From Methanospirillum hungatei (lineage in GTDB: Archaea; Halobacteriota; Methanomicrobia; Methanomicrobiales; Methanospirillaceae), in the NCBI RefSeq assembly GCF_019263745.1, contig NZ_CP077107.1:2356001-2420000 (forward strand): 64,000 nucleotides of DNA, in the 5' to 3' direction. Shown here one piece after another: positions 8,029 to 25,359 of the stretch. Position numbers and translations under genes: made by a program. Numbering within the stretch: position 1 is the stretch's first letter; every line of letters starts with the position of its first letter. The notes under the pieces are model-generated. The model had not been told where the DNA came from and did no database searches. It saw only the letters and a program-made list of their open reading frames with translations.

Positions 8029-8781
8029 ATGATCTTCATGAATTTCATAACCTTATCACACCCACACTCAATTACACAAGGGGAATTTGAAGATTTTCGA
8101 ACATATGATGAGATTCCAACAGCGATTTTTATTAATGGCAGGCATTTATCTACTCTTCTCCTGGCTCCAGGGGATCAGAAAGAATATATTACTGGTTTTC
8201 TTTTAACCGAACAACATATTACAAAAAAAGAGGAAATTGAATCAATCCGTGTAGAAAAAAACCGGATAAGTATTATTACAACGAATATTTTTACTAGCCC
8301 CGGGCCAAAGAAGACAATTCTTTCTGGATGTGGAGGAGCAGTTTCATATATTGACACTGGAAAACTACCCATTTTATCCAGTAATTTTTCTGTGTCTGAA
8401 AATGCGATAGATGATTGTATTCGAAAAATCCATTCAGAGAAAGAAATATGTTCGTATGGTCTCGTCTTCTCATGTCTATGTCAAGAAGATGGATTGCTTC
8501 TATATCGATGTGATATCACTGATGATCAGTCATTGGATCGGATGATTGGAGCAGCATTCACCAAAGAAATAAATCTTACTTCCTCATTTTGTGTCTGTTC
8601 AGCAACAATAACATCAGAATCGGTTCGAAAATGTTTGATTGCCAGAATTCCCCTCATAATAACCATTGGATATTGTACTTCTCTCGCAGTTGAGATCGGC
8701 AGAAAAAATGGATTGGGTATTGGTGTAGTCCATGATGAGACGATCATGATCTATTCAACTCCAGAACGAATAAGCCGATAA
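8029..8781 (+). CDS. Divergent FdhD-like protein
   Basis: 250 residues alignable over the full length with the FdhD at 20741-21505. FdhD moves sulfur from a cysteine desulfurase to the molybdenum cofactor of formate dehydrogenase. This copy keeps LSGCGG and the C-terminal YSTPERIS segment, but the strongly conserved GRHNALD motif is replaced by TDDQSLD and the SGRxS motif by SATIT. It is probably no longer a standard FdhD. It converges with the desulfurase fusion at 8782 with no gap. A second start at 8038 is possible. Confidence 0.7.
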   Translation: MIFMNFITLSHPHSITQGEFEDFRTYDEIPTAIFINGRHLSTLLLAPGDQKEYITGFLLTEQHITKKEEIESIRVEKNRISIITTNIFTSPGPKKTILSGCGGAVSYIDTGKLPILSSNFSVSENAIDDCIRKIHSEKEICSYGLVFSCLCQEDGLLLYRCDITDDQSLDRMIGAAFTKEINLTSSFCVCSATITSESVRKCLIARIPLIITIGYCTSLAVEIGRKNGLGIGVVHDETIMIYSTPERISR

Positions 8782-11412
8782 TTATTGGCTGATGATCTCT
8801 TTCAGAGTAGCAAGGAAGAGATCAATCTCCTCTCTGGTATTATAGTGTGCAATACTTACACGAACCGTTCCTTCAGGCAGATTCAGAGCACTCATCAGTG
8901 GCTGACAGCAGTGAAACCCTGACCGTACCAATATGTCATGGTCATCAAGCCGTTGGGCTACTTCATGGGGATGCATCCCATCAATGGTGAAAGAAACAAC
9001 CCCTATTCTGGTTTCTGGGTTACCTGGTGCATATACCCGGACTCTCTCAATGGCGTGTAGACCGTCGATCAGGCGGCTGGTGAGATGCTCTTCATGCTCA
9101 TGGATCTTGTCCATGCCGATTCTCTTCAGATAATCAACCGCAACACCTAACCCGATGCCCCCTGCAATATTGGGTGTACCAGCTTCATATTGCTCATATC
9201 CCTGTATCAGCACAACCTCCTCGTCGGTAACCGACTCAACCGTTCCTCCACCCTCCATCAGAGGAATCAGGTTTGGTTCTTTCATCCAGAGAACTCCCGT
9301 GCCGGTTGGCCCGCCGAGTTTATGTCCTGAAAAGCAGTAGAAATCGCAACCGATTCTTCTGACATCAACCGGCATATGGGGGGCTGCCTGGGCCCCGTCG
9401 ACGAGCAGTAGTACTCCTTTTTCCCTGCACAGAGTGGCAATTTCCTGCACTGGGGTGATGATCCCAAGGACATTTGATGCCTGTGTGATTGCCACAAGCC
9501 TGACCGGCTTTTCAAGAGCCTTCCGGAATTCATCCATATCCAGGGAATAATCCGGAAGTATGCCGATGATTTCAAGGGTAACACCCTGCTTCTCAAGTGA
9601 TCTCCAGGGCAGAAGGTTTGAGTGGTGTTCAAGGATGGTAGTGACAATCCGGTCACCCGGTGTCCAGGTCAGTCCCTGTGCAACCATGTTGATCGCTTCG
9701 GTGGTGTTTTTGGTAAAGACCGTGACGCCCTCCTCTGCTCCGATAAATTCTGCCACCTTCTCATGTGCATGCCAGTACCGCTGGGTTGCTATCCGGGTAA
9801 ACCGGTGCACTCCTCTTCCGACATTTGACCTGTACCGGTGTTCAAACTCGACCATAGCCTCAACAACCGGTTCAGGAGAGCAACTGGTCGCAGCATTATC
9901 CAGATATATAACATCTCCAAGGATGGGATAATCATGCCTGATCGCACGGAACATATCATCGGGTTCAGGTCCGACATCTGCTCTCTTCTGCTCGATGGGA
10001 GAAACTGGCGGGGGTTGCTGCTTCTTTTTTCTCTCTTTTGTTTGTGCAAGGGTGAAATCATCATTGACGAGAACTCCCATGTTCCTACATAATTCACGCA
10101 TCTTCGGTGGAAGTGCCCGCCATCGCCACAGACCCCAGTCAGTGTAGGCATCCGGCATCTGTTTCTTTTCGGCCCATTTATCAAGAAATGCATCCCACCG
10201 CTCGGTGAAATCCGGATGAGTCTTTCGGATGGAATCATATTCACTTTCAAGCATGGCAGGACAGAGGTAACAGCCGATCCGCTCGATACCCCGTTCATAG
10301 AGGGGATTAATTGGGAAGTTCCGCCACCAGAGATAGAGGAATACTTCAAATGCCCTCCAGCTCCGGATAGGGGATATATTCAGCTGCAGTGGATTTGCCG
10401 GGTTCTGACTGGTCTCATCAAGACCGGCACGGTTCCATGACTCATACCAGCGGTTCCCCTGAATGGTAACACTGGGACCTATATCAGCAAGATAAATCTT
10501 CAGGGGATGTAATTTGAGAAGTTTACAACACCACCGGTTGTCCTTGCCGGGTGGTCCTGCCTTCTCCACCGCCTGCCAGAAGTCACCGCCCTTCCTAATG
10601 ATCTCAACTCCCTGCTCTTCAATAAACTGAATGGTTTCAGGGAATTCGAGTCCAGTATCGATGAAAAATGCCTTGTCCACTCCGGCTTTTCGTGCCAGGT
10701 GAAGAACAGCTGTGCTGTCCTTTCCACCGGAGAATGAAACATTGACCGTCGGCCGGTCTTTCATGTGGCTCTTAATGGTCCGGACAGCATTCCGTTCCAG
10801 GTTTTTCAGATGATATGTATTGTGGACAATGACCGCTTCCCAGTCAGGATCCGGATAAGTGGAGGGGGTAATCGGGAGGAGTTCTTTTACCTTGATAAAT
10901 CCCTCTTTCACGATGGCTGTCCCGTATTTTCCATTCGCCGTGACAATGACCGAACCATCCGGCACCGGTGTTTTCAGGGGAAATCGTTTCCCACCGATTC
11001 TTCCTTTTTCTGCTTTGAGATCAATATGAGCAGTCAGGTCGATGATCCCTTTTGATATATACGGAACCAGAAATGGCAGAGCTTCAGGGGTAATATCGAG
11101 TGAATAGGTTTTGGTCACCGGATCAAAAGTGAACCAGCCAAACCGCTGCCCGTTGATGATAACAAGTTCTGCACGATCATACCCCCCGGTCTTATTCAGG
11201 AGAATTATCTTCGGAACAGGAACATCTCCGTATTGGGAAGTTAATAATTGAATGATATGATCCCGATCTGCCGAGAGAGCAGGGCGGAGATCATAGGGCT
11301 GAAGAAGGGGGATGGTTTTTGCTTCATTGCCGCAGCTGCAGGTTCGTCCGATCAGGGGAACGTTGCAGTGTTCACACCAATAGAGTGTTTTTTTCACAGC
11401 CGGCTCGTGCAT
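8782..11412 (-). CDS. Zn-ribbon / PUA / PAPS-reductase-like PP-loop / cysteine desulfurase fusion
   Basis: 876 residues. The N-terminus has a Zn ribbon (C13, C16, C25, C27) and a PUA-like beta domain (about 125-190). Next comes a PAPS-reductase-family PP-loop domain with SGGKDS (about 226-231) and extra cysteines (WCCK near 295, CYLC near 379). From about 486 there is a complete class-V PLP desulfurase with the PLP lysine in SGHK (about 692) and an active-site cysteine in SGFHCC (about 834). One chain thus contains a sulfur donor and an ATP-using sulfur-chemistry enzyme. Substrate unknown; thiolation of RNA or a cofactor is inferred from the PUA domain. Its desulfurase half closely resembles 21508-22689. 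Confidence 0.85.
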   Translation of the reverse strand: MHEPAVKKTLYWCEHCNVPLIGRTCSCGNEAKTIPLLQPYDLRPALSADRDHIIQLLTSQYGDVPVPKIILLNKTGGYDRAELVIINGQRFGWFTFDPVTKTYSLDITPEALPFLVPYISKGIIDLTAHIDLKAEKGRIGGKRFPLKTPVPDGSVIVTANGKYGTAIVKEGFIKVKELLPITPSTYPDPDWEAVIVHNTYHLKNLERNAVRTIKSHMKDRPTVNVSFSGGKDSTAVLHLARKAGVDKAFFIDTGLEFPETIQFIEEQGVEIIRKGGDFWQAVEKAGPPGKDNRWCCKLLKLHPLKIYLADIGPSVTIQGNRWYESWNRAGLDETSQNPANPLQLNISPIRSWRAFEVFLYLWWRNFPINPLYERGIERIGCYLCPAMLESEYDSIRKTHPDFTERWDAFLDKWAEKKQMPDAYTDWGLWRWRALPPKMRELCRNMGVLVNDDFTLAQTKERKKKQQPPPVSPIEQKRADVGPEPDDMFRAIRHDYPILGDVIYLDNAATSCSPEPVVEAMVEFEHRYRSNVGRGVHRFTRIATQRYWHAHEKVAEFIGAEEGVTVFTKNTTEAINMVAQGLTWTPGDRIVTTILEHHSNLLPWRSLEKQGVTLEIIGILPDYSLDMDEFRKALEKPVRLVAITQASNVLGIITPVQEIATLCREKGVLLLVDGAQAAPHMPVDVRRIGCDFYCFSGHKLGGPTGTGVLWMKEPNLIPLMEGGGTVESVTDEEVVLIQGYEQYEAGTPNIAGGIGLGVAVDYLKRIGMDKIHEHEEHLTSRLIDGLHAIERVRVYAPGNPETRIGVVSFTIDGMHPHEVAQRLDDHDILVRSGFHCCQPLMSALNLPEGTVRVSIAHYNTREEIDLFLATLKEIISQ

Positions 11413-11707: not shown

Positions 11708-12502
11708 ATGACAATTTTAGGATCAATCCTTTCAGATATCCGGGAAAAAACACCCCTTGTCCACCATATGACAAACTATGTCACGGTGAATGACTGTGCC
11801 AATATCACCCTTTGTATCGGCGCTTCACCGGTCATGGCACACGCAGAAGAAGAAGTCGGGGAGATGGTTGCACTTGCAGGATCTCTCGTTCTGAACATCG
11901 GCACCCTTGATCCCCTCCAGATTGACCGGATGTTTGTAGCGGCGAAAGCCGCAGAAAAACATGGCATCCCTATCATTCTTGATCCAGTCGGTGCCGGAGC
12001 AACCAGCTTACGGACAAAAACCGCTCATAGAATGATCCAGGAGTTGTCCATCTCAGTTCTCAAGGGAAATGCCGGAGAGATAGGAACCCTTGCTGGGAAA
12101 CAGGCACAGGTCCGTGGTGTAGACTCCGGTGGGGTAACCGGCGATCCGACAGATATCACCTGTGTCCTTGCAGAGCGACTTGGCTGTACGGTTGTCATGA
12201 GTGGTCCCACTGACATCATCAGTGATGGTTCCCGGACTCTTCTTTGTGAGAACGGACACCCCCTTATGGGACGTATATCCGGGACAGGATGCATGGCTGC
12301 ATCGGTTATTGGGTCCTGTGTCGCAGTCACCCAGAATTATCTCTCTGCATCCGCCACAGGTATTGCTGCGTTTGGGATTGCAGGAGAGCGGGCTGCTTCA
12401 GAGGCTGCAGGTCCTGGCTCTTTTAAATATCGCCTCTTTGACAATATGGCATCAGTCACTTCGGATGATGTTGACCGGTGTGCCCGTACTCGGTCAGTAT
12501 AA
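11708..12502 (+). CDS. thiM: Hydroxyethylthiazole kinase
   Basis: 264 residues, normal length for ThiM, which phosphorylates 4-methyl-5-(hydroxyethyl)thiazole for thiamine salvage. Seen: the N-terminal [17 protein letters not shown] substrate region, the [10 protein letters not shown] segment, LKGNAGEI, and the C-terminal GTGCM segment that forms the phosphate-binding anion hole. No TPP riboswitch is recognisable in the 295 bases upstream. It fits the sulfur theme of the area, since the thiazole sulfur comes from cysteine and ThiI is encoded at 36530. Confidence 0.93.
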
Positions 12503-17283: not shown

Positions 17284-18267
17284 ATGGTATTATCTCATAT
17301 ACGTGAAGACATTCAGGCGATTATATCAAAAGATCCGGCTGCAAAAAGTATGGTTGAGGTTCTCCTCTGCTACCCGGGATTACATGCATTAGTATTGCAC
17401 CGTATTGCCCATAAGGCCTGGATTCATAACCGGTTTCTGACAGGACGGTTTCTGTCACATATTGCCCGCTTTTTTACCGGGATTGAGATTCATCCGGGTG
17501 CAGTTATTGGCAGACGGGTGGTGATAGATCACGGGATGGGTGTGGTGATTGGGGAGACGGCTGAAGTTGGCGATGATGTTCTCATTTACATGGGTGTGGT
17601 GCTTGGTGGAACTGCACTGAAAAATGTAAAACGTCACCCCACAATAGCCAAAGGAGTGGTCATTGGCTCTGGTGCCTCCGTCTTAGGGCCGATTCATGTG
17701 GGGGAATATGCTAAGATTGGTGCAGGAGCGGTTGTTGTCCGTGATGTACCTCCCGGAGCCACTGTTGTCGGAGTTCCTGGCCGTATTGCCGGCCTTGAGA
17801 AATACACTTCACAGGATAACATTCGCGATTCTGCCATGCCTGACCCGACCCTTCGGGTTCTCAGCAGGCTTCTTGAGCGGCAGCAGGTGCTTGAAGATCG
17901 GATATTCAGACTTGAACGAGAGAATGCACTTTTGAAAGGCGGAGTGGATATTAAAATCTCCGGAGACAGGGAGTCTGAAGTCCTGAATGCCTTAAGGCAG
18001 GTGATTGATCCTGAGATCGGACATAGTATTGTGGATGTCGATCTGATCCGGTCAATAACCATAGCAGAGACGCTGGTAAAGATTGAAATGGCAATAAACT
18101 GCGATGCATGCCCGCTTCAGGACTATCTCATCGACCAGGTTTCAGCACGGGTCCGCCTTATCCCCTGGGTCTCTGATGTTGAGATAACCGTTATCCATGA
18201 TCCCTGGGACTGGAAGATCTCTGCTGAAAACACTGAATGCAGTCCGGTAATGGATAAAACAATATAA
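17284..18267 (+). CDS. cysE: Serine O-acetyltransferase fused to a DUF59/MIP18 domain
   Basis: 327 residues. The first 190 or so form a CysE: an N-terminal helical part and hexapeptide repeats with the catalytic HGMGVVIGETAEVGDDV region and VVGVPGRI end. It makes O-acetylserine for CysK (38778). After a coiled-coil linker (about 198-225) comes a DUF59/MIP18-like domain (about 232-315) with VIDPEIGHSIVDVDLI and a cysteine in CDACP, a family tied to Fe-S assembly. The fusion is unusual and suggests cysteine synthesis coupled to Fe-S delivery (inference). A TATA-like GAATAAATAA lies near 17234. Confidence 0.88.
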   Translation: MVLSHIREDIQAIISKDPAAKSMVEVLLCYPGLHALVLHRIAHKAWIHNRFLTGRFLSHIARFFTGIEIHPGAVIGRRVVIDHGMGVVIGETAEVGDDVLIYMGVVLGGTALKNVKRHPTIAKGVVIGSGASVLGPIHVGEYAKIGAGAVVVRDVPPGATVVGVPGRIAGLEKYTSQDNIRDSAMPDPTLRVLSRLLERQQVLEDRIFRLERENALLKGGVDIKISGDRESEVLNALRQVIDPEIGHSIVDVDLIRSITIAETLVKIEMAINCDACPLQDYLIDQVSARVRLIPWVSDVEITVIHDPWDWKISAENTECSPVMDKTI

Positions 18268-18341: not shown

Positions 18342-18674
18342 TCATCTTCCTGGTGGCTCATCCATTCCTGACTCATTGATATTATCCTCGTACTCCGAAT
18401 AAAGGGTGGAAAGAAATTCTTTTACATCTTCTACTGAAAACCTGGTTGATATGATGATATCCGGATCATGGACCATTCCCTGGATGGATAATGACGAGGA
18501 TGTATCAACCCTGAAGAAGGTTAACGGACCGATAGTATAAGTGGTAGCCATTTTGGTATTGACCAGAAACTGAATAAAATTTGAATCGGGTTTCGGATCT
18601 ACATGAAAGGTATATCTGAAAATTCCCTGAGTGCATGTTGCCACTTTTGCCCGATATGTTATACTGACTGGCAT
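18342..18674 (-). CDS. Uncharacterised 110-residue protein, sulfur operon
   Basis: No family recognised. Mixed alpha/beta content with a C-terminal helix (DVKEFLSTLYSEYED). It is the last gene of the moaD-moaE-desulfurase operon, overlapping the desulfurase by 16 bases. It aligns weakly along its whole length with the product at 33597-33914 (shared YT, FI, GxL..F, GM..DP.I and a final EF...L...Y pattern), so the two may form a small family. One cysteine (C13) is present; a sulfur-transfer role is only suggested by position. Confidence 0.6.
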   Translation of the reverse strand: MPVSITYRAKVATCTQGIFRYTFHVDPKPDSNFIQFLVNTKMATTYTIGPLTFFRVDTSSSLSIQGMVHDPDIIISTRFSVEDVKEFLSTLYSEYEDNINESGMDEPPGR

Positions 18675-19831
18675 ATTGCGTTGATAGCATCAGCGATCTG
18701 AGCACACTCCTCAGGAGTGTTCATGTATGACAAACTGATACGTACAGCCCCTTTTCCCTCTGTTAGGCGGGAGTGAATCCACGGTGCACAGTGGAGACCA
18801 CTTCTTGAGATGATCCGGTATGCTTTCGCAAGGATGTACCCGATATCATCAGGATCGAGCCCGGATATCTGAAATGATACAAGGGGGGTCTGTGGGTTTT
18901 CATGGAGTAAGGATACTCCTTTGATGCCGAGCAGCTGCTGAATCAGGTCAGAGATCATTCCCATAGACTTCTTTTGTATGGATTCTATCCCGATATCCTG
19001 AACAAATGCAATGCCCGCTGCAAGTCCTGCAATACCAGGGAAGTTTGGTGTCCCTGCTTCAAATCGTTCAGGCATTGATTCCGGCTGAACTGGTGAGGAC
19101 GAATCTGTCCCGGTACCCCCCTGTCGTACCGGGTAAATCAGGTCAGGACTTCTCAGAAAGAACCCCCCTGTTCCTGGAACTCCAAAAAGATACTTGTGGC
19201 CGGTAAAAACAAATGCATCACAAGATGTCCTTGAGAGATCGACTGGGATCTGCCCGGCACTCTGCGCTCCGTCAATAATGGAGTAAGTGTCTGCTTCATC
19301 CATGATGCGGGAGATTTCTTTGATATTCTGAATTGTTCCGGTTACATTTCCTGCATGAGAGATGATCCCAAGTTTTGTATCATCCCGAATAGCCTCACTT
19401 ACATCTTCAGGATCGATTACCCCGTTTGCATTCGGAGGAATGACCGTCACCGAGATCCTGCCCGTCTTTTGCAATTTATACAATGGGCGGATTACCGAAT
19501 TATGCTCAAATGATGTGGTAATGACATGAAATGGTTCTTTCTCCTGTGCAGCAAATCCGTGTAAAAGGAGATTGAGTGAATCGGTGGCATTTGCGGTAAA
19601 TACATATGCATCAGGATCTCTAGTATTAAAAAAGTTGGCAAGTTTTCTTCGTGTTTCGAACAGGTAGTCAGGTACATCCTGTAAGGTGGTTCTTCCCTGT
19701 TCAAGATAGGGTCCGGCTGCTGCCTGTGATACCGCGGCTAAAACTGATGGTGGTTTCTGCCAGGTTGTTGCAGCATTATTTGCATAAATTATTGAGTTCT
19801 GAATGGTATCAGGATTATTCTTTTTCTCCAT
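18659..19831 (-). CDS. Cysteine desulfurase-like class-V PLP enzyme
   Basis: 390 residues. Seen: YANNAATTWQKPP start, IDGAQSAGQ, PLP lysine in FTGHKYLFGVPGTGG, and a cysteine in SGLHCAPW at the position of the SufS/CsdA active-site cysteine, with no long loop (group II). It overlaps moaE upstream by 17 bases and the small unknown gene downstream. The context suggests it supplies sulfur to the MoaD C-terminus for molybdopterin synthesis, the task of IscS-like enzymes in bacteria. Confidence 0.87.
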   Translation of the reverse strand: MEKKNNPDTIQNSIIYANNAATTWQKPPSVLAAVSQAAAGPYLEQGRTTLQDVPDYLFETRRKLANFFNTRDPDAYVFTANATDSLNLLLHGFAAQEKEPFHVITTSFEHNSVIRPLYKLQKTGRISVTVIPPNANGVIDPEDVSEAIRDDTKLGIISHAGNVTGTIQNIKEISRIMDEADTYSIIDGAQSAGQIPVDLSRTSCDAFVFTGHKYLFGVPGTGGFFLRSPDLIYPVRQGGTGTDSSSPVQPESMPERFEAGTPNFPGIAGLAAGIAFVQDIGIESIQKKSMGMISDLIQQLLGIKGVSLLHENPQTPLVSFQISGLDPDDIGYILAKAYRIISRSGLHCAPWIHSRLTEGKGAVRISLSYMNTPEECAQIADAINAICQSV

Positions 19832-20740: not shown

Positions 20741-21505
20741 TTATAAACTGACTTCTATCCCGGATATCCGTTCCGGATGCGAATAGATATTCATTTTTCT
20801 TCCCCGGACAAATCCAATTATGGTTAGCCCCTTACCCTGAGCAAGACGTATAGCAAGGGTTGTTGTCGCTCCCCTGGAGACAATAAGCGGGATATTTGCA
20901 ACAAGGCACTTTCGTGCCATCTCTGAAGATATCCGCCCTGATATTACTGCATAACAGTGAGATAAGTCAATGTCATTTTGCAGGGCATAGCCAATCACCC
21001 GGTCAAGAGCATTATGTCTACCAATATCTTCTGCAACGGTATGGACTCCATCAATACCGGCAAGTCCGACTACATGGATACCCCCTGTCAATCGGTGAAG
21101 GTCTGAATCCAGAATTCCTTTTATTGTCTCATGAATTCTTTCTCCGGATATGTGAAAATCTGAAGTGATGTCCGGGAGCCTTGCAGGATCAAGGTATGAA
21201 CTGTCTCCCCCACATCCTGAGAGGACTGTTTTTGTTCCACTGCGGATGTGTGCCCGGTGAATAGTAAGTACTCTGATCTGGTTTCCTTCAATCTGCAGTG
21301 AGTCAATCTCCTGGCAATGAGAGATGATTCCCTCCGTCACCAGATACCCCATGACAAATTCCTCAAGCCTGGTCGGACTGGTCATGGCGTTCAGGATCTT
21401 CCTGCCATTGACCCAGATGGTATACTGCTCTTCAATAATTACTTCATGAGTCCGTGCTGTGTAAATGCCATCCTCTTCTCCATAACAGGGAAGTATTTCA
21501 TACAT
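20741..21505 (-). CDS. fdhD: FdhD, sulfur transferase for formate dehydrogenase
   Basis: 254 residues. It keeps the FdhD core motifs EDIGRHNALDRVIG and SGRISSEMARK and the final YSHPERIS. In the loop where bacterial FdhD usually has CxxC, only the first cysteine is present (SGCGGDSS). FdhD takes sulfur from a desulfurase and sulfurates the Mo/W cofactor of formate dehydrogenase. It follows the desulfurase at 21508 by two bases, a dedicated donor-acceptor operon. Formate dehydrogenase itself is not in the window. Confidence 0.92.
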   Translation of the reverse strand: MYEILPCYGEEDGIYTARTHEVIIEEQYTIWVNGRKILNAMTSPTRLEEFVMGYLVTEGIISHCQEIDSLQIEGNQIRVLTIHRAHIRSGTKTVLSGCGGDSSYLDPARLPDITSDFHISGERIHETIKGILDSDLHRLTGGIHVVGLAGIDGVHTVAEDIGRHNALDRVIGYALQNDIDLSHCYAVISGRISSEMARKCLVANIPLIVSRGATTTLAIRLAQGKGLTIIGFVRGRKMNIYSHPERISGIEVSL

Positions 21506-21507
21506 AT

Positions 21508-22689
21508 TCAGATACCCTCCGAGATTTCTGTCACCGCTTCTACAAATTTATTAATTTCTTCTCTTGTATTGTAGAGATACAAGCTTGCCCTGACCGTTCC
21601 TTCAGAGATAGCGAAATGTTCCATCAGTGGTATACAGCAATGATGACCAGATCGAACCATGATGTCATATTGATCATCCAGCAGGTGGGCGGATTCATGC
21701 GGATGCTGACCCTCGATAGTAAAAGAGACAACACCAAGACGTGAGTCTGTCCCTTTTGGTCCATACATCGTAACTCCGGGTATCTGTAAGAGCCCGCATA
21801 TCATATCACGGGTCAGGGATAATTCATGTTCATGGATTTCCCTCATTCCAACGTGGTTTAGAATTCGTATGGCTTCCCGAAGGCCTACTGCTCCGGTTAT
21901 GTGAGGGGTCCCTGCTTCATATTTCATATAACCGTCTTCCAACGTGTATTCGCTGGTCGTTACCGATTTGATGCTCCCGCCACCCAGAATAAATGGTTCC
22001 AGGTCCGGCTCTTTCATCCAGAGGGCACCGGTTCCGGTTGGCCCAAGCATCTTATGGCCGGAGAATGAAAGATAATCACACCCGATATCTGATACGTCAA
22101 CTGGAATATGAGGTACGGACTGTGCACCGTCTAGCAGGGTTTTAATATCATGGTCATGAGAGATGGAACATATCTCTTTTACCGGCTGGATGGTTCCTGT
22201 TACATTTGAAACGTGGGTGAAGGTAATAAGTCTGGTCTCCTTTTGAATGAGTTCTGAAAAAGACTCGGGGTGCAGATATCCCTCTGCATCAGGCCTGACA
22301 AAGTCCACGTTGATACCCTTTTTTCTCAGTTGCATCCATGGGAGTATGTTGGAATGATGCTCCAGGACTGATGTGATTACATGATCCCCCGGATTCAGTC
22401 GGAGGCCATACGCGACCTGGTTAATCCCTTCGGTGCAGTTTTTTCCAAAAATACAAACCCCGTCTGTTCCACCAATGAATGATTTTACCCTCTCATGTGC
22501 ATCCCAATAGAGTTGTGAACTCACCTGGGAGAGACGGTGAACCCCTCTTCCAACATTTGATCTGGATGAAGTCTCATATTCATCCATAACCTCCAATACA
22601 GAGGATGGCATCAGGCTGGTAGATGCATTATCAAAATAGATGAGATCCTGAGTGAGAGATATGTCTTCCCGAATCGTTTGTATATTCAT
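21508..22689 (-). CDS. Cysteine desulfurase, SufS/CsdA type, paired with FdhD
   Basis: 393 residues from the ATG at 22689, chosen because GGGGGA precedes it at a good distance and the product begins at the usual SufS point (MNIQTIREDISL...IYFDNAST). Seen: SNVGRGVHR, LDGAQSVPH, PLP lysine in FSGHKMLGPTG and active-site cysteines in SGHHCC (group II). It is the closest relative in the window to the C-terminal half of the fusion at 8782. First gene of a desulfurase-fdhD operon; a likely TATA (TTATATAG, about 22730) lies about 40 bases upstream of the start. Confidence 0.9.
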   Translation of the reverse strand: MNIQTIREDISLTQDLIYFDNASTSLMPSSVLEVMDEYETSSRSNVGRGVHRLSQVSSQLYWDAHERVKSFIGGTDGVCIFGKNCTEGINQVAYGLRLNPGDHVITSVLEHHSNILPWMQLRKKGINVDFVRPDAEGYLHPESFSELIQKETRLITFTHVSNVTGTIQPVKEICSISHDHDIKTLLDGAQSVPHIPVDVSDIGCDYLSFSGHKMLGPTGTGALWMKEPDLEPFILGGGSIKSVTTSEYTLEDGYMKYEAGTPHITGAVGLREAIRILNHVGMREIHEHELSLTRDMICGLLQIPGVTMYGPKGTDSRLGVVSFTIEGQHPHESAHLLDDQYDIMVRSGHHCCIPLMEHFAISEGTVRASLYLYNTREEINKFVEAVTEISEGI

Positions 22690-22787
22690 AATTTTCCCCC
22701 GATGTGTCCTTATTTGCACTATTTTAGGATTCCTATATAAGGGTCTATACTGGTCACGAGTATTTATGGTATATGGCATCAAACATA

Positions 22788-22803
22788 TTTCACAATTGTG
22801 AAA
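22788..22803. promoter_or_regulatory. Palindrome TTTCACAATTGTGAAA at the nadA start
   Basis: A perfect 16-base palindrome ending nine bases before the probable nadA ATG (22812). It recurs in core form at 32120, 42746 and, with one change, 42554. A TATA-like TATTTATGGTATATGG lies about 20-30 bases upstream on the plus strand, so the palindrome would cover the nadA transcription start, a typical repressor position. It could also act on the divergent desulfurase gene. Confidence 0.65.
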
Positions 22804-22811
22804 ATAGAAAA

Positions 22812-23804
22812 ATGACATATATTCGACCTACAGAGTCTGAAATCCAATCGCTCAAAGAGGAAATAGCCGCTTTAAAAAAAGAACAGGATGCAATAATTCT
22901 GGCCCACAATTATCAAAGGCCTGAAATATACGATATAGCGGATAAGATCGGAGATTCCCTTGAGTTATCACTTGCCGCCCGTGATGCCCGGGCCGAATGT
23001 ATCATTTTTTGTGGTGTTGATTTTATGGCAGAGACTGCAAAAATTCTCTCTCCTGATGCCAGCGTGTACCTTCCAGCAGAAGAGGCTTATTGTCCCATGG
23101 CGAGTATGGTGTCTGAATCTGATGTATTTTCTTTGAAAGAGCAGTACCCGGATGCCGACGTTGTGTCGTATGTCAACACCTCCGCATCCACGAAAGCTCT
23201 GTCAGATATCTGCTGCACATCAGCGAATGCCATTGAGATTGTACGTTCATGTGCATCTGATCAGGTTATTTTTCTTCCAGATCAGAATCTGGCCTCCTAT
23301 GTCCAGTGTTTTTCAGATAAATTAATCATTCCCGGAAGAGGGAATTGTTATGTCCATGATCGGATTACACCGATAATGGTAGATAATATGCGGGCATTTC
23401 ATCGGAAAGCCCCATTTATTGCCCATCCAGAATGCAGACCTGAAGTAATTAATATCGCCGATGCAGTCTGTTCTACGAGCGGGATGATTGCATACTGCCA
23501 GGATCATCCTGCAGAGGCTTTTATCATCGGGACTGAAAATGGTATGATCGAACGTTTAAAGCGTGAAATTCCTGAAAAGCGATTTTATGCTATCGGGGGG
23601 ATATGCACTCCCATGAAACAGACAACCCTGGATACTGTAAAAGATTCACTCCTATCCGGTGCTGGAGAAGTCACTCTGGAAAAATCTCTAATTTATACGG
23701 CACGTGGAGCTCTTGAACGCATGCTCCAGATTTCAGGAAGGAAAAAAAATATCCCGTGCCGACAGATGAAGAAGAGTGGGCCGGGGATTATTATACGAAA
23801 GTGA
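22812..23804 (+). CDS. nadA: Quinolinate synthase
   Basis: 330 residues from the ATG at 22812; a longer frame from 22773 would place the palindrome inside the gene, so the shorter start is preferred. NadA condenses iminoaspartate with dihydroxyacetone phosphate for NAD synthesis, using a [4Fe-4S] cluster. Seen: LAHNYQRPEIYDIADKIGDS, CGVDFMAETAKIL, a cysteine in EAYCPMA, VHPEC-like AHPEC, STSGMI and GGICTPMK; cysteines near residues 100, 190 and 275 fit the cluster ligands. Divergent from a cysteine desulfurase, which could provide cluster sulfur. Confidence 0.93.
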   Translation: MTYIRPTESEIQSLKEEIAALKKEQDAIILAHNYQRPEIYDIADKIGDSLELSLAARDARAECIIFCGVDFMAETAKILSPDASVYLPAEEAYCPMASMVSESDVFSLKEQYPDADVVSYVNTSASTKALSDICCTSANAIEIVRSCASDQVIFLPDQNLASYVQCFSDKLIIPGRGNCYVHDRITPIMVDNMRAFHRKAPFIAHPECRPEVINIADAVCSTSGMIAYCQDHPAEAFIIGTENGMIERLKREIPEKRFYAIGGICTPMKQTTLDTVKDSLLSGAGEVTLEKSLIYTARGALERMLQISGRKKNIPCRQMKKSGPGIIIRK

Positions 23805-23886
23805 TGGGTAACATGATCGATATTGAAAGGAAAAATCCCTCTTTTTTGATACTATGGATGGCTTTTTCAGGGGGCAGGCGGGTATC

Positions 23887-25359
23887 ATGATTCGCGGTTC
23901 AGTTGGAACGGTACAGACTCAGGTTCACACATTTTCTTCACCATTAACACTCGAAAGCGGAGCGGTTCTCCCGTCAGTTACGGTTGCGTATGAAACATAT
24001 GGCTCGCTCAACCCGGATCACTCCAACGCAATTCTCATCTGTCATGCTTTGACTGGTGATGCCCATGTTGCCGGGTACCATGAAGGAGATGACAAGCCCG
24101 GGTGGTGGGAGATGGTTATTGGTCCTGGAAAAGCTTTTGATACAGATAGGTTCTTTATCATCTGTTCAAATGTCCTGGGTGGATGCAAAGGGACAACCGG
24201 CCCTTCATCGGTCAATCCTGAAACTGGAAAGATATACGGGGCATCATTCCCTGTGATAACGATTGCTGATATGGTGATGGTCCAGAAAAGACTGATAGAT
24301 AATCTAGGAATCACGAATCTCTTTGCAGTTGCCGGGGGCTCCATGGGCGGAATGCAGGCACTCCAGTGGAGTGTTTCATATCCTGATATGCTGAGCCGGG
24401 TGGTTGTAATAGCAAGTACTGCGTATTCAACGCCACAGCAGATAGCCTTTAACGAAGTCGGCCGGTGTGCAATCCGTTCAGATCCATCCTGGAATAATGG
24501 CCAGTATTATGATCAGGAATGTCCAGCCTCTGGTCTTGCACTTGCACGGATGATCGGTCATATCACATATCTGTCAGATGAATCGATGCACCAGAAATTT
24601 GGCAGGGATTTACAGGAAAAAGCTGGCTATAGTTATGATTTTACGACAGACTTCCAGGTAGAGAGTTACCTTCATCACCAGGGAGATCGGTTTGTTGAGC
24701 GATTTGATGCAAATTCATATTTGTACATCACCAAAGCAGTCGATTATTTTGATCTGACCGTGAATGGCTCCCTGATTGATGCGTTTAAGGATATGAAAGC
24801 AAAATGCATGGTGATCGCCGTCAGTTCAGACTGGTTATATCCACCATATCTTTCACGGGAGATTGTATCCGCTCTGGCTCAGCTGGATAAAACTGTCGAA
24901 TACTGTGAGATTCGATCCAATCATGGACATGATGCATTTCTGCTGGAATCAGGACAGATGAACTACCTTCTGGGGCGTTTTCTCTCGCACCTAACAGTTT
25001 CAGATCTGATGATCCGGAGTGTGCCAACGGTTCGCGAGACCGTGACCATTAAAGGTGCGGCGGCTCTGATGATTGCTGAAGCAGTTAATCACCTTCCGAT
25101 TGTTTCGTCAGATGGCAGCCTTGTTGGTATTGTCACATCCTGGGATATCTCCCGGTCGGTGGCGCAGGATGTGAAAACTCTTGAAGATATTATGACCCGG
25201 ACCGTCCTTACTGCAACACCAGGAGAACATATCAGTAAAGCAGTAAACCGTATGCAAAAGAACCGGATATCCGCCTTGCCTGTGGTTGATGAAGAAAACC
25301 GGGTTGTTGGTATAATTACTGCAGAACGTTTATCACGCCTGGTTATCAGGTGTGAATGA
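23887..25359 (+). CDS. metX: Homoserine O-acetyltransferase with C-terminal CBS pair
   Basis: 490 residues from the ATG at 23887 (an in-frame ATG at 23854 lacks a ribosome site). The first 375 or so form an alpha/beta-hydrolase MetX: nucleophile Ser in GGSMGGMQ, Asp in SSDWLYPP, His in NHGHDAF. The remainder is two CBS motifs ([18 protein letters not shown] and [15 protein letters not shown]), which usually bind adenosine nucleotides or SAM and could give feedback control. The product, O-acetylhomoserine, would be used by MetY at 39847. The N-terminus begins GSVGTVQTQ. Confidence 0.92.

Follow-up and report, generated by a model that had tools for sequence, protein, structure and literature searches.

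A conserved fusion of a PAPS-reductase-like protein and a SufS-type cysteine desulfurase in Methanomicrobiales is a candidate sulfur-transfer enzyme

Introduction

Proteins that join a PAPS-reductase-like domain to a cysteine desulfurase have already been published, under a reductase name (PMC6286981, PMC11237513). Putative APS/PAPS reductases of methanogens with a cysteine desulfurylase domain are noted in Fig. 3 of PMC6286981, and PMC11237513 lists CysH-SufS as a cluster found only in Methanomicrobiales (cluster 536). PMC6286981 places such proteins in one group with two homologues from M. jannaschii for which APS and PAPS reductase activity has been reported; these activities are credited to Lee 2011 and Cho 2013 (thesis), both cited there and in PMC10322725. 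PMC6286981 itself calls it unclear where APS/PAPS would come from, and PMC10322725 leaves open what such genes do in other methanogens. In the sections of the two papers that present the fusion, the proteins are named from the domain alone, and their motifs, PUA domain and kinship with BrxP are not considered there.

Further systems share parts of this architecture. The archaeal PRK13795/PRK08557 proteins of Methanosarcinales and others consist of a Zn ribbon, a PUA region and a PP-loop domain with CC/CxxC cysteines and a WRW signature, and end in an alpha+beta domain with two 4Fe-4S ferredoxin motifs. BrxP, the PAPS-reductase-like DNA phosphorothioation enzyme of BREX type 4, is encoded in defence loci and carries ferredoxin and often DUF4007 tails; no PUA domain was seen in it. 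In phosphorothioation, a desulfurase donates sulfur to PAPS-reductase-like proteins (PMC12839542). The Fe-S tRNA thiolases TtuA, NcsA and TtcA combine a PP-loop fold and an Fe-S cluster with a logic of adenylation followed by thiolation. Here we describe a fused gene of Methanospirillum hungatei and compare it with these systems.

Architecture of the fused protein

The window, that is, the whole stretch of DNA that was analysed, comprises 64,000 nucleotides of M. hungatei (contig NZ_CP077107.1, positions 2,356,001 to 2,420,000). On its minus strand, a single open reading frame with an ATG start (8782..11412) encodes a protein of 876 aa made of a putative PP-loop sulfur-transfer half and a SufS-type cysteine desulfurase. 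Zn ribbon, PUA-like, PP-loop and SufS modules are confirmed in this one chain, and Pfam matches PAPS_reduct at residues 223-386 (1.5e-36) and Aminotran_5 at 502-866 (1.2e-122). Since the same architecture occurs in an identical single frame in many independent genomes, some of them single-contig, an assembly error, a frameshift or a chance fusion was ruled out, and the fusion is not an artefact. A preliminary description of the locus had listed the four modules correctly but overlooked the invariant cysteines of the predicted [4Fe-4S] site and the kinship with phosphorothioation enzymes that are presented below.

The chain begins with a Zn ribbon (residues 10-30; 11323..11385), whose cysteines 13, 16, 25 and 27 never change among 51 distinct fused homologues or in a 32-sequence family alignment. 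It is followed by an alpha/beta domain (residues 32-118; 11059..11319) that reaches to the PUA region and is modelled with pLDDT >90; a by-eye comparison found a similar ‘RPxxxxE/D’ stretch in a Treponema BrxP. A diverged PUA-like domain takes up approximately residues 120-181 (10870..11055). For this domain, 10 of the 32 family members match Pfam PUA (best 3e-21), the family profile matches the PUA domains of archaeosine transglycosylase (TGT), Cbf5, Nip7 and others, and the model of the N-terminal half has a beta-rich domain at about 120-181 (strands at 123-180) that appears to match the PUA region. With Pfam PUA, a paralogue elsewhere in this genome (1.44 Mb) reaches 8e-18. Given the PUA domains of relatives and the family profile, the domain of the window protein appears to be inherited and diverged. 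The term “PUA-like” used earlier thus holds for the family, but the window protein is itself too diverged to score with Pfam.

The PP-loop domain of the PAPS_reduct fold (about residues 198-390; 10243..10821) was assigned by Pfam, the VIA fold match and hhalign. Its SGGKDS ATP-pyrophosphatase loop (residues 228-233; 10714..10731) is present as first described, like the Zn ribbon, and is identical in all 51 fused homologues. RWCC (293-296), GNRWYES (319-325), Cys381, Cys384 and WRW (429-431) are equally unvarying in these proteins, and the eight cysteines outside the desulfurase are invariant in the 32-sequence alignment, which reaches Methanosarcinales and distant paralogues. Cys295-Cys296 (10525..10530) and Cys381-x-x-Cys384 (10261..10272) align with the CC and CxxC cluster ligands of the P. 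aeruginosa APS reductase 2goy, and these four cysteines are predicted to form an APS-reductase-type [4Fe-4S] site. Since none of the four has been lost, the cluster may play the structural or electrostatic part that it has in APS reductase instead of carrying sulfide. TtuA/NcsA-type thiolases leave one cluster iron open, whereas four cluster cysteines are present here, so that a [4Fe-5S] mechanism is not indicated. Further downstream, the family signature WRWRALPPKM (residues 429-438; 10099..10128) occupies the place of the catalytic ECGLH region of CysH.

A linker (residues 447-486; 9955..10074), which is disordered at 465-482 (pLDDT <50) and varies from 39 to 63 aa among the fused homologues, leads to the SufS-type cysteine desulfurase domain (residues 487-876; 8785..9954), supported by Pfam, PDB and fold matches. 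The claim that its PLP lysine and active cysteine are intact was borne out: K698 (9319..9321) and the catalytic persulfide cysteine C835 in RSGxHC (8908..8910) are found in 51/51 fused homologues, together with the desulfurase-site residues H596/H597, D672, Q675 and H834. SufS-type enzymes are the best PDB matches of this half, and the sufS model TIGR01979 (NCBIfam) is the best model for the region, with 415.4 bits, under its cut-off of 475.1; the genome’s standalone SufS also lies under this cut-off (411.7 bits).

The full-length structure model has a mean pLDDT of 90 and a pTM of 0.55, and this low pTM together with the disordered linker indicates that neither half holds a fixed position with respect to the other. 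The desulfurase part of the model matches the Thermococcus onnurineus desulfurase 5b87 with a VIA Z of 56 (rmsd 1.3, 388 residues). Because a fold search with the full model matched the desulfurase half only, the N-terminal half was modelled and searched alone (pLDDT 92, pTM 0.91), and its PP-loop part gave a VIA Z of ~15 to APS/PAPS reductases and ~10 to TtuA, NcsA and LarE.

Distribution and evolution

The survey covered 55 well-assembled Methanomicrobiales genomes and, from the rest of the phylum, about 240 more. The fused form was found in 37 of the 55, one of them with a longer linker, and only an unfused PP-loop copy in the remaining 18; no genome had neither, so the PP-loop gene, fused or unfused, is a near-universal core gene of Methanomicrobiales (55/55). 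The fusion was absent from the approximately 240 other genomes of the phylum, which hold unfused homologues only, most of them with a ferredoxin tail. Fused matches in a scan of named genomes likewise came solely from Methanomicrobiales, and the PRK08557 model was over its cut-off in one named control genome.

On the tree of the PP-loop half, the fused proteins need three state changes, which fits one fusion event followed by losses; a single origin of the fusion seems likely. In one relative from Methanospirillum the desulfurase half has been lost. In two genomes (G155 and G010) the halves are consecutive cistrons, with a stop/start overlap in G155, and the desulfurases of these two pairs form one clade with the fused desulfurase domains (97 SH-aLRT), which suggests that the pairing of PP-loop protein and desulfurase is itself kept, whether fused or not. 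That homologues might always be separate, with the fusion explained by sequencing, was considered from the outset; instead, the shared domain order is conserved across the order, with separate halves of the same desulfurase clade as neighbouring cistrons in these two genomes.

Related PP-loop genes also occur elsewhere in these genomes. An unfused relative, located upstream of grpE-dnaK-dnaJ and oriented divergently to purH (loci L124-L136), is found in many Methanomicrobiales, chiefly those that lack the fused form. The M. hungatei paralogue (L154 6942-8342, at 1.44 Mb) is a PRK13795-like PP-loop protein with a canonical PUA domain, without a ferredoxin or SufS tail, and is present in nearly all Methanomicrobiales sampled. 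It and the fused protein are the only two BrxP-type PP-loop proteins of the genome.

Genomic context

The fused gene lies tail to tail with an FdhD/NarQ-like sulfurtransferase gene (8029..8781, plus strand), a possible acceptor that scores below the FdhD cut-off, and is divergent from a ThiM hydroxyethylthiazole kinase gene (11708..12502, plus strand). Among 36 long fused loci, an FdhD-cluster gene occurs within 8 genes in six, mostly adjacent; it directly adjoins the fused gene in Methanospirillum and in a small number of other cases. As a convergent gene that is not widely kept, FdhD is a weak candidate for a dedicated acceptor. In 13 of the 36 loci thiM is the same-strand gene at +1, and thiE follows at +2 in 10, mainly in Methanoregula, where thiM is downstream on the same strand in most loci; in Methanospirillum it is divergent, and fused loci of Methanocorpusculum have neither a thi cluster nor an FdhD neighbour. 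The thiamine link is therefore confined to genus level, and neither association is general enough to name the substrate. Neither in the window nor in related loci do the recurrent neighbours include BrxC, PglZ, DUF4007 or DndD/E, and a BREX or Dnd defence island was ruled out, with no such partners beside the fused gene.

The window has further genes of sulfur metabolism. At 20741-22818 (minus strand), only 2 nt separate the gene of a stand-alone SufS (21508-22818) from that of a second, canonical FdhD downstream of it (20741-21505), and this pair likely supplies sulfur for the Mo/W cofactor; with the second FdhD paired with its own SufS, the FdhD beside the fused gene is the odd one. Three more cysteine desulfurases of different subfamilies lie between 14261 and 22818, namely NifS beside an IscU/NifU-type scaffold, an EF2568-type enzyme (18659-19831) and the SufS just mentioned. 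An NcsA-like thiolase is encoded in the same 9 kb, making this a sulfur-trafficking neighbourhood. Amid the desulfurase genes, at 17284-18267 (plus strand), a serine O-acetyltransferase (CysE) is fused to a C-terminal FeS_assembly_P (SufT/DUF59-like) domain, possibly linking cysteine synthesis with Fe-S assembly, and at 23854-25359 (plus strand) a homoserine O-acetyltransferase MetX carries C-terminal CBS domains.

Comparison with described systems

The published CysH-SufS cluster 536 and the proteins of PMC6286981 have the same architecture and belong to the same order, and are very probably the same protein group. With the PRK13795/PRK08557 proteins, the fused protein shares every element from the Zn ribbon to the WRW signature, but has SufS in place of their alpha+beta and ferredoxin C-terminus. 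The desulfurase has the fold, PLP lysine and persulfide cysteine of SufS group II (T. onnurineus 5b7s, B. subtilis SufS); here, in contrast, it is the C-terminal domain of a larger enzyme, in a genome where no SufE was found. TtuA, NcsA and TtcA belong to another PP-loop subfamily, with other Zn and RNA-binding modules and only marginal similarity in sequence profile. Their three-cysteine site is not seen in the fused family, which has four invariant cysteines and matches the PAPS_reduct/CysD subfamily best.

The closest functional relatives by profile are found among phosphorothioation enzymes. PADLOC models scored on the PP-loop half with 125 bits for BrxP (5.7e-37), 44 for SspD (5e-12) and 21 for DndC (3e-5), against 62 bits for the best CysH-type NCBIfam model, a ranking that is only indicative because libraries and profile lengths differ. 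The hhalign profile comparison of the PP-loop domain with a BrxP gave 2e-40, and the motif series FSGGKDS, RWC(C), GxRxxES and NPLYxxGxxRVGCxxCP is common to BrxP and the fused protein, with single-residue departures, whereas E. coli CysH is unlike both. BrxP differs in its defence loci and tails from the fused protein, which is a core gene product with a PUA domain and a covalent SufS. Two plasmid BrxP-like proteins from BREX-4/Ssp-like loci were compared, one encoded upstream of a BREX-4 PglZ gene; the other has as neighbours DUF4007 and a class-V PLP enzyme that carries an aminotransferase annotation. The gene of the latter locus, on Treponema saccharophilum plasmid pTS1 (L191 8698-10329), is missing from the PLSDB gene table, which is incomplete. 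In the PP-loop tree the archaeal proteins group together, and the sister group is not fixed because the BrxP branches are very long.

Discussion

We interpret the fused protein as an ATP-dependent housekeeping enzyme of sulfur transfer that carries its own sulfur source and probably acts on RNA, a reading on which our judgement is evenly balanced. The SufS half, with its complete active site, would take sulfur from cysteine and form a persulfide on C835. This sulfur may cross the flexible linker to the PP-loop half rather than go to SufE. The PP-loop half, carrying its predicted [4Fe-4S] cluster, would adenylate the substrate with ATP, as the SGGKDS loop suggests, and sulfur would replace the activated group. 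The idea that sulfur is passed within the chain to an activated substrate, already put forward in the preliminary description, is supported, with the hand-over step being one that we infer; the word “self-contained” was too strong, as some relatives persist without the desulfurase half. We consider RNA the probable substrate, and tRNA the likeliest kind, given the archaeal-type family PUA domain, the Zn ribbon and the status of a core gene rather than a defence gene. RNA is a plausible substrate in that PUA domains usually denote RNA. Kinship with the desulfurase-partnered sulfur writers BrxP, SspD and DndC also counts in favour of sulfur transfer. Against our interpretation, the genome already encodes two ThiI and one NcsA-like gene (s4U8 and s2U34 thiolation enzymes), so that no orphan tRNA thionucleoside is identified, and both the 18 genomes with unfused copies only and the ferredoxin tail in Methanosarcinales argue that the desulfurase is not essential in cis.

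The published label, by which the protein would be an APS/PAPS reductase (CysH) of sulfate assimilation fused to a desulfurase that only builds or feeds its Fe-S cluster, is probably wrong on the evidence of the sequences, and we regard this function as quite unlikely. In its favour stand the PAPS_reduct fold (Pfam and VIA), the APR-type CC...CxxC ligands, the reported activities of the two M. jannaschii homologues (via PMC6286981 and PMC10322725) and the cluster name CysH-SufS (PMC11237513). However, the catalytic cysteine of ECGLH, a motif present in E. coli CysH, occurs in 0/32 family members, the SGGKDS loop is intact where that of CysH/APR is degenerate, and the route to APS is missing: Sat was found in 0/80 and CysD over cut-off in 0/61 Methanomicrobiales genomes, APS kinase was full-length or near full-length in only ~4/80 genomes of the order, and none of the supply genes Sat, CysDN and CysC was found in the M. 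hungatei genome itself. The label is judged weak on the lack of ECGLH, the intact SGGKDS and the missing ATP sulfurylase, and the higher score of the BrxP model than of any CysH model also speaks against it.

Unlikely, in our view, is a sulfur or cofactor enzyme that is not directed at RNA and serves the thiamine thiazole, or FdhD and the Mo/W cofactor. The thiM-thiE and FdhD neighbours described above suggest such a role, but the thi cluster adjoins mainly in Methanoregula, Methanocorpusculum has neither neighbour, the other FdhD in the window comes with a SufS of its own, and the PUA domain and Zn ribbon would be left unexplained. We consider very improbable a phosphorothioation writer of the BrxP, SspD or DndC type that has turned into a core gene and modifies the backbone of RNA or DNA rather than a base. 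Profile similarity and the C-terminal ferredoxin region that Methanosarcinales homologues have in common with BrxP point to it; the absence of BrxC, PglZ, DndD/E or DUF4007 partners nearby, a vertical core distribution unlike that of defence genes, and a tree with no firm sister relation argue against it. To our knowledge, RNA phosphorothioates have not been established as natural. A slim chance is given to a core enzyme that adds sulfur to RNA, with writer and desulfurase in a single chain and a product that could be a phosphorothioate in the backbone or a thionucleoside not yet described; it would be an RNA-directed housekeeping relative of the BREX-4/Dnd enzymes that modify DNA with sulfur.

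In conclusion, PAPS-reductase-like proteins of archaea are routinely assigned to sulfate assimilation, in genomes unable to make APS or PAPS. The fusion is a direct clue that this family accepts sulfur from cysteine, and the kinship with BrxP together with the PUA domain makes RNA sulfuration a testable idea. If this is true, a widespread gene family of methanogens bears the wrong name, and a new modification by sulfur, or the route to one, would await discovery.
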